From positions 1-64,000 of the forward strand of contig RAYO01000017.1 of NCBI GenBank assembly GCA_003612335.1: DNA of 64,000 nt, given 5' to 3'. A model generated the notes under the pieces. That model did not search any database, was not told the origin of the DNA, and saw only the letters and a list, made by a program, of their open reading frames with translations. Shown here piece by piece: positions 33,319-41,602 of the stretch; the first letter of the stretch is position 1; the number at the start of each line of letters is the position of its first letter. This DNA is from a bacterium 1xD42-67 (GTDB lineage Bacteria > Bacillota > Clostridia > Oscillospirales > Oscillospiraceae). The translations under genes and the position numbers were made by a program.

Positions 33319-35703
33319 TCAGTCCACCGCCTTGATCCGCTCCACCAGAGAGAGTTTTCTGGCATAGCGGACTGCGCAAGCGGAGAATACCCCCTGCACC
33401 AGAAGCAGGGCAGCCCCAAACAGCAGCACCTGGAGCACTGGGAAATGGTAGGTAAGGGTCCCGAACATGCCGATCTGATCGAAGGCCCGGCACACGGCCA
33501 GACTGCACGCCGTCCCCAAGGTCAGGGTGACCAGCAGCGTGATCCCCACATAGTACAGGCACTCATAGGACAGCATTTTGGACAACTGCCGGCCGCTCAT
33601 GCCCACAGACTGGAACACTCCGAACTCCTGCTGGCGCGCGAGGAGGTTGGTGATCAGGGTGTTGGCAAGGTTGATGAGGGAAAACACGAAGACAAAGACT
33701 AAAATGCCGTAATCCCTTGCCAGCTCCCCCCGCAGGCCGCGCTCCAGCTCGGCGGACAGGTCATCCAGTCCGGAGATCGCCACCCGCTGGTCGAACACTG
33801 CGCCGAACACCGCCCGCCGCAGTTGATCGCTGTCCTGCTCCGTGTGGAGGTTGACATAGCCGGTGAAGTCCGCAATCTCAGGGTAAAGGACGGATAGCTC
33901 CTCCTCGGGCAGGATAAAGAAATGGGTCGAGCTACCGATCTGAACATCCTGCACGATCCCCATCACGGTATAGGTCTTGCTCTGCCCATTGTAGCAGGAG
34001 ACAGTGATGGTATCCCCGATCTGATAGCTGGTCCGATAGATCTCCTTCAACGCACTGCCTGCCGGGCAGACCAGAATCCCATTTCCATCCAGGAGCTGCT
34101 CGTAGTCCGCCGTTCCCTCTAAGACCACATCGCCTGCGTACATCTCCGCCATATCCTCCTGAGAGGTCCCACGGAGAAAGAATGGCTCATGGTCCCGGTT
34201 GCCCGGAATGGCGCTGATGGCGGGAATCTCCACGCAGGTCAGGCTGTAAGCCGTGATATGATCCACGCCGGGCAGGGCGGCCAGCTCCTCCCGCAGAGTT
34301 TGGCCCAGAGGATTCTCCTTCTGCATCTCCACAAATTCCCGGCCCGCATGATCCTCATATTGCAGCAGATACTGGCTCCGGTCTCCGAATTGAGACTGGG
34401 CCATTTCCTTTACGTCCACTGAATTTGCGTAGGCGGAAACGCAGAGAAGCAGGATACCGGTCAGGCCCAGAGAGAGTGTGGTGACAAACGCCTTTTTCCG
34501 GTTCCGGGAGAAGTTCATCAAAGCCAGGCGGGGCATGGTCAGGCGGCGATGGAGCTGTCTGGAAACGTTGGGACCCTGCTGCTGGGAATAGGCGGTGGCG
34601 CGGATGGCCTCAATGGCGGAGACCTTGCCCGCCATCGCCATGGGTTTTCTGGTGGCGATCAGGACAGTTCCATAAGTCAGGAGGGAAACCACCACCGCAG
34701 ACCGGATATTGTCACCCCAGGACCAGTAGCCGGGAACGGCGATCAGCGCGATACCTGCGGCGCAGAGCAGCCCCAGGGGGATGGCAATGGCGGTCAGGAA
34801 GCGGCGCTCCCGCTTGACCACCCGCTTCAGCTGTTTTGGCGTGGTCCCCAGCACCTTCAGGCGGCCGTATTCCCGCATTTTACCCATGACGGAGATATAG
34901 AAGATGTTGTAGATCACGATGGCGCAGACCACGGCAATCAGAAATACGGCAGCATAGACCTCCATCCCGTTTCCAAGGTACAGGTCCACCATGCCGAAGT
35001 AGTTGGAGCTGTAAAAGGTCCGGTCCTCCGGGATGCCCATTTCCGCGAAGAACTGCTCAATGTCCGCCTGAAGCTGGGCCGGCTCCGTACCCTGGCTCCC
35101 GGCAAAGCGAAACCGCAGCTCATAGGGACTCTCCGGCTCCACGGCGGTCTCCGAAATCCAAACCGTGAAAATACGGCTGATGTTCTCTGTTTCCAGGATG
35201 CCTGTGACGGTATAGGACTTCTCGCCGTCTCCCAGGTCCAGGGCCACCGTCTGACCGACCTCCCCTGAGAGGCCAAAATAACGGAAAAAGGTGCGTTCCA
35301 CACACAGCTCGTTCTCCGCCTGGGGATAGGTCCCGGTGATCTCGCCGTAGCCCATCAGGCCAATCATCTCCGGGCTGACATAGCTGATCCGCAAAACGCC
35401 GTCCTCATGGCGGGCAGTTCCCGCCTCCACAGTACAGCCCCATTTTTCAAATTTCCCGGCGTCCGCCAGCCGGGTGACCTCCTCCCGGGTCAGTCCGCCG
35501 CACCCGGCCTGATACTGCCCAAGGATGCCGTCCAGGGTTTTCAGCTGCTGGGCGGAATAGAGAAAGCAGAGAGTTGCCATGAGACAGACGGCCAGAGCGA
35601 TGGTGAGGATGACAAACACGCTCCGGCGCTTGTCAGCTTTGATACTGCGGCCCGCCAATTTCTTCTCCACCGCGCTGGTGTCGTTTTCAAAAGGCCAAGT
35701 CAT
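33319..35703 (-). CDS. FtsX-type ABC transporter permease
   Basis: 794 residues. One N-terminal membrane helix (~residues 20-45), a large extracytoplasmic domain, and three helices near 240-350. A second FtsX unit follows, with a helix near 400, another large outside domain and three helices at 660-790. This two-fold MacB/FtsX layout is seen in antimicrobial-peptide sensing and export systems of the BceB/Vex class. ATG 35703 has GGGGG 8 bp upstream; GTG 35712 overlaps that site. It follows its ATPase by 13 bp. The substrate is likely a peptide or lipid-II-binding antibiotic, by analogy. Confidence 0.87.
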
Positions 35704-35716
35704 CGCCGCCACCCCC

Positions 35717-36382
35717 TCAGTTTACGATCTTGCCGTCCTCGATCCGCACGATGCGGTCGGCCAGCTGGGCGATCTCGTTGTTGTGGGTGATCATCACGAT
35801 GGTCTGGCTGAACTGCGTGCTGGTGCGCTTGAGCAGGCCCAGCACGTCGGCGCTGGTCCTGCTGTCCAGGTTGCCGGTGGGCTCGTCGGCCAGGACGATG
35901 GCCGGTTTGGTGATCAGGGCACGGGCAATCGCCACCCGCTGCTGCTGTCCGCCGGAGAGGTTGTTGGGCATATTTTGCAGCTTATCCTCCAGGGCCAGCA
36001 TGTGGACGATCTCGTCCATGAACCTCTGGTCCACCGTGTCCCCGTCCAGCTCCACGGGCAGGACGATGTTCTCGTAGACATTGAGGATGGGAACCAGGTT
36101 GTAGTTCTGGAAGATGAAGCCGATATTCCGGCGGCGGAAGATGGTCAGCTCCTCGTCGTTCTTTTTCGCCAGCTCGTCTCCCCGGACGATGACGCTGCCC
36201 GAGGTGGGGGTGTCCAGCCCGCCCATCATATTCAGCAGAGTGGACTTGCCGCTGCCGGAGGTGCCCACCACGGCCACAAACTCCCCCTGCTCCACACTGA
36301 GGTTGACGCCATCCAGGGCGCGGGTGATGTTCGGCTCAGCGCCATACTGCTTTTTCAGGTCGATGGTCTGTAATACGTTCAT
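35717..36382 (-). CDS. ABC transporter ATP-binding protein (LolD/MacB class)
   Basis: 221 residues. Walker [10 protein letters not shown], signature L-S-G-G-Q-Q-Q-R, Walker [13 protein letters not shown] and H-loop I-T-H-N-N are intact. The D-E-P-T-G-N-L-D form is typical of ATPases that power FtsX-type permeases. ATG 36382 lies 9 bp after AAGGAG; the earlier in-frame ATG at 36388 is too near. It is transcribed from its own regulated promoter (36496-36524) ahead of the permease. Confidence 0.93.
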
Positions 36383-36495
36383 CTTCATCTGCTCCTTTCC
36401 CGGCTGTCCATGCAGAGGTCTCATCTGTGTCCCCCCTGCCTTCAGCAGAGGGGACATTTGAGCTCTGCGCGGACGTTCCTGCCTGCTGCAGAGCC

Positions 36496-36524
36496 ATGGT
36501 AAGATCCAAATGTCACAGAAATGT
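36496..36524 (-). promoter_or_regulatory. ABC transporter promoter with response-regulator repeats
   Basis: Minus strand: ACATTT (36519-36524), 17 bp, TACCAT -10 (36496-36501), and a second ACATTT at 36508-36513, an 11-bp period. The same layout precedes the regulator gene. Nested inverted repeats (36453-36460 with 36507-36514; 36462-36468 with 36488-36494) overlap it. Confidence 0.6.
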
Positions 36525-37589
36525 CCGAAGCGGAGGCTTATTTGTGAATTTTTTATGAACGAACGATCTCCGGGGCAGGAACACAGAGAAGACAGACCCC
36601 CGGCCGACCTCTGAGGCCACCTTGATATAGCCGCCCTGCCGGGTGACGATCTCCCGGGCCAGATACAGGCCGATGCCCACCCCCGGCTGGTCGTGGACCT
36701 CCTCCTCCCGGTAGAAGCGCCGGAAGATGGCGGCCTGACGGCTCTCCGGGATGCCCCTGCCGGTGTCGGTCACATCCAGCTTGACATACATCTCCCACTG
36801 CTCCACTGACACGCTGATCTTACCGCCCGCTGGGGTGTACTTCACCGCATTGTCCAGCAGATTGAACAGGGCCTCCGCCGTCCACTTGCTGTCATGGGAT
36901 ACCCGCAGATCCTCCAGGCACTGTACCTCCACAGAGATCCCCTTTTTCTCCGCACTGTAGACGATGCCGCTCAATGCCTGGGCCAGGGTGTCGATCAGCG
37001 GGCCGTCCTTTTTCTCCAGGGCGATCGCCCCAGTCTCCAGGCGGGAGGCTTTCCCCATGGACTGCAACAAGAATTCCAGCTTGTCCGTCTGGCTGCGGAT
37101 GCCCTGCAAAAACTCCTGACGCTCCTCCTCGGTGACGGGCTTTTCCAGCAGGGTGTCCGTCACCATCTTCAGATTTGCCACCGGTGTTTTCACCTGATGG
37201 GAGACGTCTGACACCAGGGTCTGCAGTTCCCGCCGCTCCTCCTCCACCTTGCGCCGGCCCTCCTGGAGGATGCCGTACAGCCGGGAGAGACGGCTGCTGA
37301 TGCGGGCAAAGATGGTCTCGCTGTCATCGGCCCGGGCCGGCCCCTCACCGCCGCTGATCATGCTGTCCATCGTTCGGCATAAGTCGCCGGTGAACTGGGA
37401 CAGCCGCTTGGCAAAAAGCATCGTCAGCAGGAACAGCCAGACCAGGGCACAGGCCGTCAGCACCGCGCCGGAGATCAGCACCCAGCTCTGTCCTGTCATG
37501 GCGGAGAGAAGGAAGGAGAGGGCCAGCATGGAGAGGGCCGCTCCCGCCTCCACCAGCAGGAACATCGTCTTGACCGGGATGCGCCTCAT
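36513..37589 (-). CDS. Sensor histidine kinase
   Basis: 358 residues. Two membrane helices near residues 8-30 and 36-58 with almost no outside loop. Then come a HAMP-like linker and the dimerisation box with phosphorylated H131 (S-D-V-S-H-Q-V-K-T-P). The ATPase boxes follow: N-L-L-D-N-A-V-K-Y-T-P, D-T-G-R-G-I-P and G-V-G-I-G-L-Y-L-A. The tiny outside loop matches intramembrane-sensing kinases that rely on a partner ABC permease for detection. Its ATG overlaps the regulator's TGA. The 3' end overlaps the promoter of the transporter genes. Confidence 0.93.
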   Translation of the reverse strand: MRRIPVKTMFLLVEAGAALSMLALSFLLSAMTGQSWVLISGAVLTACALVWLFLLTMLFAKRLSQFTGDLCRTMDSMISGGEGPARADDSETIFARISSRLSRLYGILQEGRRKVEEERRELQTLVSDVSHQVKTPVANLKMVTDTLLEKPVTEEERQEFLQGIRSQTDKLEFLLQSMGKASRLETGAIALEKKDGPLIDTLAQALSGIVYSAEKKGISVEVQCLEDLRVSHDSKWTAEALFNLLDNAVKYTPAGGKISVSVEQWEMYVKLDVTDTGRGIPESRQAAIFRRFYREEEVHDQPGVGIGLYLAREIVTRQGGYIKVASEVGRGSVFSVFLPRRSFVHKKFTNKPPLRTFL

Positions 37590-38275
37590 TTCCGCTCGCC
37601 CCCTGTCCACTGATAGCCGATCCCATAGATGGTCTTGATGTAGGTGTCGCCCTCCGCCTCGATCTTGCCCCGGATGCGGCTGATGGAGGTGGTCAGGGTG
37701 TGTTCGTCCACAAATTTTTCGTCCACGTCCCACAGCCGCTCCAGAAGACGCTGCCGGGTCAGGACCTGGCGCGGATTTTTGCAGAACAGATACAGCATCT
37801 TGTATTCCATAGGTGAGAGGGCCATAGGCTTTCCGTTCAGCGTAGCTGCCTGCTCCGAGAAATCCAGGAACAGCCTGCCGTCGTCGTAGAGGTCCCTTGC
37901 CGGCCTGTGGTGCTCCAGCATGGCGAACATGGCGCGGATCTTCCGCTGCAGGGCTCCGATGGAAAAGGGCTTGGTGATGTAGTCCACCGCTCCCGCCTCA
38001 TAGCCCCGGATCTGGTCGCTCTCCTGGTCGTTGGCAGTGAGGAAGATCACCACCGTGTCTGGGTGCTCCGGCTTGATCAGCCTGCACAAGTCGTAGCCGT
38101 TGCCGTCCGGCAGGTTGATGTCCAGCAGCACCAAGTCGTACTCCGTCCTGGCCAGCAGGTCGGCGGCGGTCCTGGCATCCAGGGCGGGGGTGACCTCCCA
38201 GCCGTCGCAGGTCAGATCATAGGCCAGGGTCTTATTCAAAAGGGCATCGTCCTCAACGATCAGGATCCGTTTCAT
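37586..38275 (-). CDS. OmpR-family response regulator
   Basis: 229 residues. Receiver domain with acidic pocket E8-D9-D10, phospho-acceptor D52 (V-L-L-D-I-N-L-P-D-G), T and K of F-L-T-A-N and I-T-K-P-F. A C-terminal winged helix contains L-S-P-M-E-Y-K-M-L and G-I-G-Y-Q-W. ATG 38275 follows AGGAGG by 7 bp; the longer upstream frame is not supported. It forms an operon with the kinase, and its promoter carries the same repeat as the transporter's, pointing to autoregulation plus transporter control. Confidence 0.94.
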   Translation of the reverse strand: MKRILIVEDDALLNKTLAYDLTCDGWEVTPALDARTAADLLARTEYDLVLLDINLPDGNGYDLCRLIKPEHPDTVVIFLTANDQESDQIRGYEAGAVDYITKPFSIGALQRKIRAMFAMLEHHRPARDLYDDGRLFLDFSEQAATLNGKPMALSPMEYKMLYLFCKNPRQVLTRQRLLERLWDVDEKFVDEHTLTTSISRIRGKIEAEGDTYIKTIYGIGYQWTGGERK

Positions 38276-38516
38276 GGTTCGTCCTCCTCTGTTTCCTGTT
38301 CTCACGTCTCGCCTGTCCGCAAAGTTCGCCTTTCCTGCGTCTCGGGGCACAGACAGGACCGCTCCGCGCTCCTTGGTCCGTCCCCCTCGCTCCGGTCTGG
38401 GCTCGCTCTTCACGACGGCCCGACGCTCCATAGTATAGCAGAGAAATGTCCGTGAAATGTTACAACGCCCTGCCCTCTCCCAAAAGATCTTAGATGACAG
38501 ATCACAGGAGGGGGCC
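38276..38516. other. Intergenic, regulator promoter region
   Basis: Holds the repeat-bearing promoter (38432-38460) and nothing else I can support apart from the start of the IS630 remnant at its far end. Confidence 0.5.
38432..38460 (-). promoter_or_regulatory. Regulator/kinase promoter with direct repeats
   Basis: Minus strand: ACATTT (38455-38460), 17 bp, TATACT -10 (38432-38437), second ACATTT at 38444-38449 (11-bp period). The -35 position is occupied by the first repeat, as in promoters activated by OmpR-type regulators. Confidence 0.65.
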
Positions 38517-38750
38517 TTAAAAAGCGCCTCCGCAGGTCCAGAGCATTCCGATCGGATCGAGTTCGGGGAGATACGGTGGCAGACAGAGGTCCGCACCGGG
38601 TATTTTGAGCAACAAAAAATGACCGCTTTCGGGATGGAGCGGAGCATCGTCCATCACGATCGCGGTCCTTCGTTCCAGAGAGGGCAGTGTCTGGCTGGAC
38701 GACCAGGATCCAAAAGTCTGCTGTCCATCATCCCATGATAGACGAATCAC
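38517..38750 (-). pseudogene. IS630-family transposase remnant
   Basis: About 77 codons resembling the C-terminal DDE domain of IS630/Tc1 transposases: I-V-M-D-D-A-P-L-H and L-P-P-Y-L-P-E-L-D-P-I. The last catalytic Glu, expected just after P-I, is Gly here (P-I-G-M-L-W). No N-terminal part or terminal inverted repeats were found, so it is a dead fragment. The 100 bp to its right hold no recognisable gene. Confidence 0.65.
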
Positions 38751-40121: not shown

Positions 40122-41294
40122 TTACAGGCCCTCCATCATCTGAGCGAACCGGGGCAGGAATCGGGCAAGGTCCTGTTCCCCCTGGTACTCCACGAACAGG
40201 ACGGTGTCCCCCTGGCGGAGGACCAGGCGGGTGCAGGGATAGGCGTCCCGCTCCGGGTCGAAGGTGTCGTGGGAGATCAGGATCTGGTCCAGACCGCAGA
40301 CCGGAGCGAGGGGCTGATACTCCCCGCCGTTCCACAGGATACGGCTCTCCTCCTTCGCCCGCTCCTCCGCCAGCCAGGGGAAGAGGTAACGGCAGGCGCT
40401 GAGCTTCAGATAGGGGGCGTCGCCGGTGGGGACGCCGTGTCCGGCCCAGGCGCGCTCCTGGAAGTACCAGCGCTCCGGCATGAGCAGGGAGCGGTCGTGG
40501 GAGATACGATCCATATAGTCGGGCCACAGCAGAGAGATCTGGAGGTCCGGCCCCTCGATCTCCTCCAGGGTGACGAATCCGGAGCCCTCCAGGGGATAGG
40601 ACCGATCGGACAGGCCGGTGAAGAGGATCAGGGTCTCGGCCAGCACCACAGCCAGGAGCAGCGTCCCCGCCGCCAGCAGGCCGCCCCCGCGGGCGCGCCG
40701 GGGCGGCATCCTTCCGGCGGAGACCGCTCTCCGGTGCCGGTGCAGGGAGATCAGCCCCAGCAGCCAGGACAGGTCCACCAGCGCCAGTCCCAGGACAGAC
40801 AGGATCAGCGGGATCAGAGGACAGCGGCTCATCGTCTCTATGGGGGACCAGCGCAGGTCGTACCAGGAAACGGAGACCCGCTGCCAATAGAGGGACAGCA
40901 GCAGGAGACCAGATACCAGCAGCCCCAGCCCGCCCAGCAGCTTCCGCCGGAAGAACCGTTTCAGTGCATGATCCCAGATCTGCGGATCGGTGTGGGCCTG
41001 GGCCTGCGGGTCCTCCGTCACGAAGACGGCGAAGTCCCGGCGGAGCAGCCCCAGATACCTCCAGCCCGCCTCCTCATAGAGCGCGTTCAGCTCCGGGTCG
41101 GTCCAGTCCGGCTTGCTCGGGGCTGGCTCCAGGTGGTACCGGAGGGAAGCGGGCGCCCCCCGCTCGAAGATCGTGAAGGGCCCTGCCGTTAGGGCGAAGG
41201 TCAGCCCCTTGGCCGCCTGTCTCTCCAGCCAGCCCTCCAGGCTGGGGATGTCATAGCCGTTCACCGGCGTAAAGCGGATCGTCAGCCTGCTCAT
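40122..41294 (-). CDS. DUF2812 membrane protein (first of pair)
   Basis: 390 residues. DUF2812 domain at ~5-115 (Y-D-I-P-S-L-E-G-W-L-E-R-Q-A-A-K-G, later R-Y-H-L-E-P), then four membrane helices around residues 125-260 and a C-terminal soluble domain. It shares layout with the downstream gene, 29 bp away, and is probably a tandem duplicate. Its ATG overlaps the PadR stop codon (ATGA), so it is translated with PadR. Function unknown. Confidence 0.85.
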   Translation of the reverse strand: MSRLTIRFTPVNGYDIPSLEGWLERQAAKGLTFALTAGPFTIFERGAPASLRYHLEPAPSKPDWTDPELNALYEEAGWRYLGLLRRDFAVFVTEDPQAQAHTDPQIWDHALKRFFRRKLLGGLGLLVSGLLLLSLYWQRVSVSWYDLRWSPIETMSRCPLIPLILSVLGLALVDLSWLLGLISLHRHRRAVSAGRMPPRRARGGGLLAAGTLLLAVVLAETLILFTGLSDRSYPLEGSGFVTLEEIEGPDLQISLLWPDYMDRISHDRSLLMPERWYFQERAWAGHGVPTGDAPYLKLSACRYLFPWLAEERAKEESRILWNGGEYQPLAPVCGLDQILISHDTFDPERDAYPCTRLVLRQGDTVLFVEYQGEQDLARFLPRFAQMMEGL

Positions 41295-41602
41295 CGCGTT
41301 TCCTCCTCTCCATCCGCCACGCAGGCCCGCAGGCGGGCCAGCTCCTCCGCGAAGGCATCCCGCCCCTTTGGGGTGATCTGATAGGTCCGCTTCCGGCCCT
41401 CCACCCCGGTCTCCTCCAGGAGGCCCTCCTCCTGGAACTTGGCCAGCAGGGTATACAGCGTCCCCGGCCCCAGCCGCACCCGGCCCGCCGTCTTCCGTTC
41501 CACGAAAGCGCCGATCTCGGTGCCGCACATCTCCCGATCCAGGAAGGCCATGAGCACATAATACATCGGCTCGGTCAGCGGTCCCTTCTCCCGTCCTGAC
41601 AC
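41291..41602 (-). CDS. PadR-family regulator
   Basis: 103 residues. PadR winged helix with L-T-E-P-M-Y-Y-V-L-M-A-F, the G-P-G-T-L-Y-T-L-L-A-K-F recognition helix and the wing R-K-R-T-Y-Q-I-T-P-K-G. A short C-terminal helix gives the small PadR-s2 form. The GTG start follows AGGAGG by 7 bp. A perfect dyad sits just past its -10 element, so it likely represses its own operon until a ligand binds. Confidence 0.94.
   Translation of the reverse strand: MSGREKGPLTEPMYYVLMAFLDREMCGTEIGAFVERKTAGRVRLGPGTLYTLLAKFQEEGLLEETGVEGRKRTYQITPKGRDAFAEELARLRACVADGEEETR

Follow-up and report, generated by a model that had tools for sequence, protein, structure and literature searches.

The window, by which we mean the whole 64,000-nucleotide stretch that was analysed, carries a two-component system and an ABC transporter, encoded on the minus strand in the order regulator, kinase, ATPase, permease (Table 1). 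The regulator combines a receiver domain (PF00072, E 2.9e-26) with a winged-helix domain (PF00486, Trans_reg_C, E 1.7e-21). Hydropathy predicts two helices in the kinase, at residues 11-29 and 38-56 (numbering starts one residue ahead of the likely Met), with roughly 8 residues outside between them; the first-pass annotation's picture of a kinase with almost no outside loop is thus borne out. The kinase core (residues 101-346) matches BceS with an E value of 7e-18, and 13 solved kinase sequences, DivL and CovS/VicK first, match the kinase better than BceS does. In the window, the kinase gene lacks the stop codon of its relatives and runs 17 codons further (36513-36563) to a TGA within the ABC box, a situation unique in the comparison of 66 loci.

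The permease has two extracellular domains and, by hydropathy, eight predicted helices. An AlphaFold2 model (mean pLDDT 81.7, below 50 in the linker 371-383; pTM 0.70) likewise contains eight long membrane helices. Its best fold match is Escherichia coli YbbP, with a TM score of 0.62 over the whole chain (9ge6) and 0.52 (9ge7), followed by LolE, BceB (TM 0.30-0.37) and MacB. Upstream of the regulator promoter, a short ORF at 38517-38750 resembles a transposase remnant by eye and has no Pfam match at E 0.01; further along, at 40122-41602, a PadR-like regulator gene adjoins a gene for a DUF2812 protein.

Table 1. Positions of the genes and promoter elements in the window, with the double-receiver genes of relatives in the last row
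Feature	Position	Strand	Remarks
Response regulator	37586-38275	-	receiver and Trans_reg_C; OmpR/PhoB class
Histidine kinase	36513-37589	-	HisKA and HATPase_c
ABC ATPase	35717-36388	-	LolD/DevA/MacB-like
Permease	33319-35703	-	two FtsX stretches; begins MTWPFENDT
Regulator-promoter box	38444-38460	-	ACATTT-CACGG-ACATTT; its first repeat takes the -35 position and its second falls within the spacer
Extended -10 of regulator promoter	38432-38440	-	TGC-TATACT
Leader	38278-38425	-	from the -10 to the regulator start; largely a dispersed repeat
ABC-promoter box	36508-36524	-	ACATTT-CTGTG-ACATTT; exact match and orthologue conservation
-10 of ABC promoter	36496-36501	-	TACCAT, without TGn extension
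Double-receiver genes under the same box	L209 9274-10053; L226-L239; L155

A direct repeat at two promoters and its conservation

Upstream of the regulator, the minus strand reads ACATTT (38460-38455), CACGG, ACATTT (38449-38444), CTCTGC and the -10 hexamer TATACT (38437-38432). The ABC promoter reads ACATTT (36524-36519), CTGTG, ACATTT (36513-36508), GGATCT and TACCAT (36501-36496). The first-pass annotation had reported ACATTT-N5-ACATTT at both promoters, its first repeat 17 bp before the -10, and this proved right to the base; in both, 6 bp separate the second repeat from the -10. The motif search that it proposed, covering the genome and relatives, returned two exact copies in the 3.56-Mb genome, both at this locus, against one for a reversed-pattern control, and found the repeat conserved in orthologous loci.

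Once mismatches are allowed, the repeat is weak on sequence alone. With one mismatch the genome contains 12 matches and the reversed control 16; with two, the window contains three where 1.04 are expected, and 7 of 100 shuffles gave at least three. Since the pattern is not over-represented with one mismatch, only the exact pair stands out, together with a pair on contig C12 that flanks a paralogous kinase, and the statistical force comes from conservation. A search of 36380-38600 against Rfam at gathering thresholds gave no match.

How widely is the repeat conserved? Eighty loci were retrieved, and the 75 with a kinase identity of at least 60% were kept, making 76 with the window's own copy. 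Regulator promoters were counted where the regulator start could be placed and at least 150 bp lay upstream (n = 67), and ATPase promoters where the start could be placed (n = 66); L057 was left out of these counts because its upstream sequence is too short. With at most one mismatch, and the window's copy counted, the box is present in 57 of the 67 regulator promoters (53 exact) and 65 of the 66 ATPase promoters (59 exact). Many of these loci are closely related, so that the distinct promoter windows number 47 for the regulator and 45 for the ATPase. Simple base shuffling of the upstream regions produced a box in 4 of 3350 cases for the regulator and 4 of 3300 for the ATPase. Ten regulator promoters lack a box at this threshold: in L021 an exact box stands further away, 645 bp upstream, L013 ends at a contig end, L066 and L076 have a box with two mismatches, and the other six show none in the available upstream sequence, up to 3 kb. 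The single ATPase promoter without a box at one mismatch or fewer is that of L063.

Across the boxed orthologous promoters, the distance from box to gene is variable (53-220 and 56-260 bp), whereas the spacing from box to -10 is fixed; in 38 of the 57 boxed regulator loci, only 53-60 bp separate the box from the start. Each promoter keeps its own form, GTAACATTTCGCGGACATTT-N6-TATACT with TGn for the regulator and CGGACATTTCTGTGACATTT-N6-TATAAT-like without TGn for the ABC genes. A second, weaker pair lies about 32 bp further upstream in many ABC promoters of Lachnospiraceae-titled loci. In one locus, L078, about 190 bp of inserted sequence containing long inverted repeats, perhaps a small mobile element, was seen by eye between the ABC -10 and the ATPase start.

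The window's kinase gene ends within the ABC box, and coding constraint was considered as the cause of the box's conservation. This cause is ruled out, because of the 65 loci in which box and kinase stop can both be placed, 64 have the box 3' of the stop (21-297 bp beyond it in 58 loci and 378 bp to 2.5 kb in six), the window being the exception.

Could the two repeats have arisen by chance, or be the trace of a recent promoter duplication? The lack of over-representation at one or two mismatches would fit such an origin, and mismatch-tolerant counts alone would not suffice to dismiss it. However, conservation among orthologues rules out a chance origin of the repeat, and the retention of a distinct variant by each promoter across loci argues against a recent copy, making this explanation extremely improbable. 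ACATTT-N5-ACATTT behaves as a conserved, putative operator.

Recognition helices, further sites and double-receiver proteins

The recognition helix reads VDEHTLTT in 63 of 65 orthologous regulators, the other two lacking a VDEH string. Among seven paralogues at 53-58% identity, it reads VDEHALTV in five, VDEHTLTV in one and VDEHTLTT in one. A regulator box whose first half-site is AGATTT or AGGTTT occurs in four of the six paralogues with VDEHALTV or VDEHTLTV; the regulators of L107 and L110 have no box within three mismatches. Second half-sites of the paralogues, after the kinase or before the ATPase, are AGAATT or ACAATT where seen. L105, the paralogue with VDEHTLTT, carries an exact copy of the repeat upstream of its regulator, but its ATPase box ends in ACAATT. 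Variant boxes also accompany two paralogous regulator-kinase loci of the window's own genome (G000), before the regulator and after the kinase in C12:25075-26887, and seen only before the ATPase in C30:17994-19735. No box within one mismatch was found for six aligned paralogues at about 40% identity (VDENALSV, VEENALSV). Half-sites thus tend to differ where the paralogue recognition helix differs, a suggestive pattern in a small set of sequences.

The strict form of the site, ACATTTC-N3-GACATTT, was sought in 61 genomes of the genus: all eight that encode a kinase orthologue at 85% identity or above have it, as do 3 of the remaining 53. The looser exact ACATTT-N5-ACATTT does not discriminate, being found in 30 of the 61, 22 of them without an orthologue. 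Across 21 kinase-bearing genomes, chosen for holding the kinase, there are 70 strict sites against three for the reversed control; 19 of these genomes have such sites and two have none. Thirty sites from 19 relatives, at most two a genome, were examined, and in 26 cases the gene that starts about 55-155 bp downstream encodes a regulator, an ATPase or a double-receiver protein. The remaining four have none of these three genes in the next 700 bp; L178, L187 and L188 carry a CGG prefix and L201 does not.

Several genomes have extra boxes before individual ATPase and permease genes. The L051 genome, titled Dorea sp. 5-2, contains 15 strict sites, and several sets of regulator-kinase, ATPase and permease genes in it carry boxes of their own (L206-L211); the L049 genome, with four strict sites, likewise has boxed regulator-kinase, ATPase and permease sets (L212). 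ORFs resembling serine recombinases, noted by eye near L209, L210 and L212, suggest that these are mobile islands.

The double-receiver protein consists of two receiver domains, with no other Pfam domain above its cut-off. Matches to it occur at 14 places in 9 of the 21 genomes. Where the gene is complete at its start (n = 11, query counted), the box lies 58-60 bp upstream in 10 cases. In L235, L236, L237 and L239, the first receiver, inspected by eye, has Asn where the phospho-acceptor Asp would be expected. No orthologue was found in the window's genome, where the best match has 25% identity (E 1e-12).

Promoter architecture and a proposed mode of action

What remains of a -35 element at these promoters? 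At spacers of 15-19, the best match to TTGACA is 1-3 of 6 positions in all 57 boxed regulator promoters and all 65 boxed ATPase promoters, while random sequence reaches at least 3 of 6 in about two thirds of cases. The boxed promoters therefore fall below random sequence, in agreement with the earlier proposal that the repeat replaces the -35. The T and the G of the TGn extension are each kept in 46 of the 47 distinct regulator promoters. The dispersed repeat that makes up most of the leader recurs in part at five other places in the genome (70-80% identity), and by eye L006 has a similar leader in the same position.

We propose, with a probability of about 85%, that the response regulator binds the 11-bp direct repeat and activates both its own operon and the transporter. 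The first-pass annotation had predicted one response-regulator box for both units; the conservation of the box at both orthologous promoters, its further targets and the half-sites of the paralogues all argue strongly for this prediction at the level of sequence comparison. The operator would be the 17-bp direct repeat, in which one helical turn separates the two ACATTT half-sites. The phosphorylated regulator would most likely sit over the -35 position and the spacer as a head-to-tail dimer and recruit RNA polymerase. From the first promoter, regulator and kinase would be produced, and positive autoregulation would amplify the response; from the second, ATPase and permease, the transporter being the presumed output. 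The extended -10 of the regulator promoter may give basal expression, and the ABC promoter, having no extended -10, is expected to be more strictly regulator-dependent. In relatives, the same operator would also serve extra permeases and the double-receiver protein, whose role may be that of a phosphate sink in a feedback loop. Given a kinase without an outside domain, lipid, transporter state or ATPase state are candidate signals.

The same geometry could be read in the opposite sense, with the regulator occluding the promoter and leaving it on stimulus. A protein bound over the -35 position and spacer would indeed block polymerase, and the regulator promoter, with its extended -10, could do without a -35. 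However, the boxed orthologous promoters have no -35 hexamer worth occluding, and an ABC promoter with neither -35 nor TGn would be very weak if merely relieved. OmpR-family regulators with tandem sites are, moreover, mostly activators. We consider repression improbable, and infer activation by the bound regulator.

Direct-repeat operators are familiar in the OmpR/PhoB class, among them the pho box and the sites of WalR and Bacillus PhoP. Clostridium difficile RR_1586 has also been shown to prefer a direct repeat (PMC6222199). The present system resembles these in its regulator class, head-to-tail half-sites and 11-bp period, as well as in its predicted autoregulation and few targets. The tandem half-sites that define an OmpR/PhoB operator, conserved and one helical turn apart at target promoters, are found here. 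The system differs from them in its half-site, ACATTT, in the placement of the first repeat at the -35 and the second 6 bp before the -10, and in having sites before a transporter core and exchangeable permeases. An exact-text literature search for the motif in four spellings returned no paper, and no description of the regulator system was found in titles and the openings of abstracts, a body of text that covers subscription journals thinly.

Exchangeable permeases behind a constant core

The permeases are far more diverse than the genes that precede them. Sorted at 50% identity, the 73 permeases (the window's is one of them) separate into 12 groups, and two or more permeases follow the ATPase in 19 of the 53 loci with a whole permease. 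Co-variation was assessed over the 50 loci with all four genes, using only the first permease after the ATPase; in these, ATPases are 84-100% and kinases 63-99% identical. Pairwise identities correlate at 0.78 between regulator and kinase and 0.82 between regulator and ATPase; the Spearman coefficient is 0.75 for kinase and ATPase versus 0.29 for kinase and permease. Among the 249 locus pairs with kinases at least 85% identical, 171 have first permeases less than 40% identical. When all permeases visible after the ATPase are counted, 122 of the 249 pairs share none of at least 40% identity, a figure that misses permeases encoded upstream of the ATPase or outside the flank retrieved. L047, L051 and L056 each have one permease between kinase and ATPase, and the visible ones differ in part. 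At kinase identities of at least 80%, the kinase membrane segments hardly track the permease (differences of 1.6-4.5 points); the 75-80% bin shows a 15.5-point difference by permease. That kinase and permease identities hardly co-vary argues against a dedicated kinase-permease pair. The first 25 residues of the permeases, by contrast, are 62% identical between groups, versus 20-42% elsewhere, and all 39 permeases in the alignment (the window's and 38 of the 72 from loci) share M1, P4, F5, N7, D8 and T9.

The first-pass annotation had likened the locus to BceRS-BceAB, with the permease as a possible sensor. In such a module, a peptide antibiotic would be sensed by permease and ATPase, which would pass the signal to the loop-less kinase. 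Part of this likeness stands: as in BceRS-BceAB and GraRS-VraFG, a loop-less kinase lies beside an FtsX-type ABC transporter that is the predicted target of the regulator, the genes for regulator and kinase neighbour those for the ATPase and the FtsX-type permease, and the kinase core matches BceS. The better scores of the thirteen solved kinases weaken the last point. Operator type, permease topology and co-evolution all depart from the Bce pattern. BceR/GraR-type regulators are reported to bind inverted repeats, although GraRS resembles the present locus in having a palindromic site at the kinase gene end (PMC3128592). A Bce-type operator would be an inverted repeat upstream of the -35, whereas here a direct repeat occupies the -35 and spacer. 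BceB is described as a ten-helix protein whose single large extracellular domain is inserted between helices 7 and 8 (PMC5985334), in contrast to the eight predicted helices, two domains and YbbP-like fold of the window's permease. The co-evolution of kinase and permease expected of a Bce system is hardly visible here, the 75-80% bin excepted, and nearly half of the pairs with close kinases share no visible permease. Permease swapping makes a dedicated Bce-like permease partner less likely, and we regard Bce-type working of this system as rather unlikely overall.

Why, then, would so constant a core be coupled to such varied permeases? As a tentative answer, which we hold to be possible without favouring it, the locus may represent a plug-in chassis of gut Clostridia. 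Near-constant regulator, kinase and ATPase would accept diverse permeases through an N-terminal tag, MxWPFENDT, and a portable promoter bearing the operator would move with each module. The kinase would read the state of the shared ATPase or tag and not that of a single permease. If so, new permeases and the double-receiver feedback protein could join the regulon at once. A kinase that serves interchangeable permeases would also separate the dedicated-permease reading from the generic transporter-state reading, which are joined in the Bce model. In any event, the repeat provides a precise, testable candidate operator for this family of regulators from gut Oscillospiraceae and Lachnospiraceae (names taken from record titles), one that could be used to find the regulator's targets in any genome.

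Among known transporters, the YbbAP/MacB/LolCDE group of Type VII systems resembles this one in combining FtsX and MacB-like extracellular domains with a separate ATPase. YbbP is described as having ten helices and two extracellular domains (PMC12646458), against eight helices in the window's permease; ten helices are not a trait of all Type VII members.
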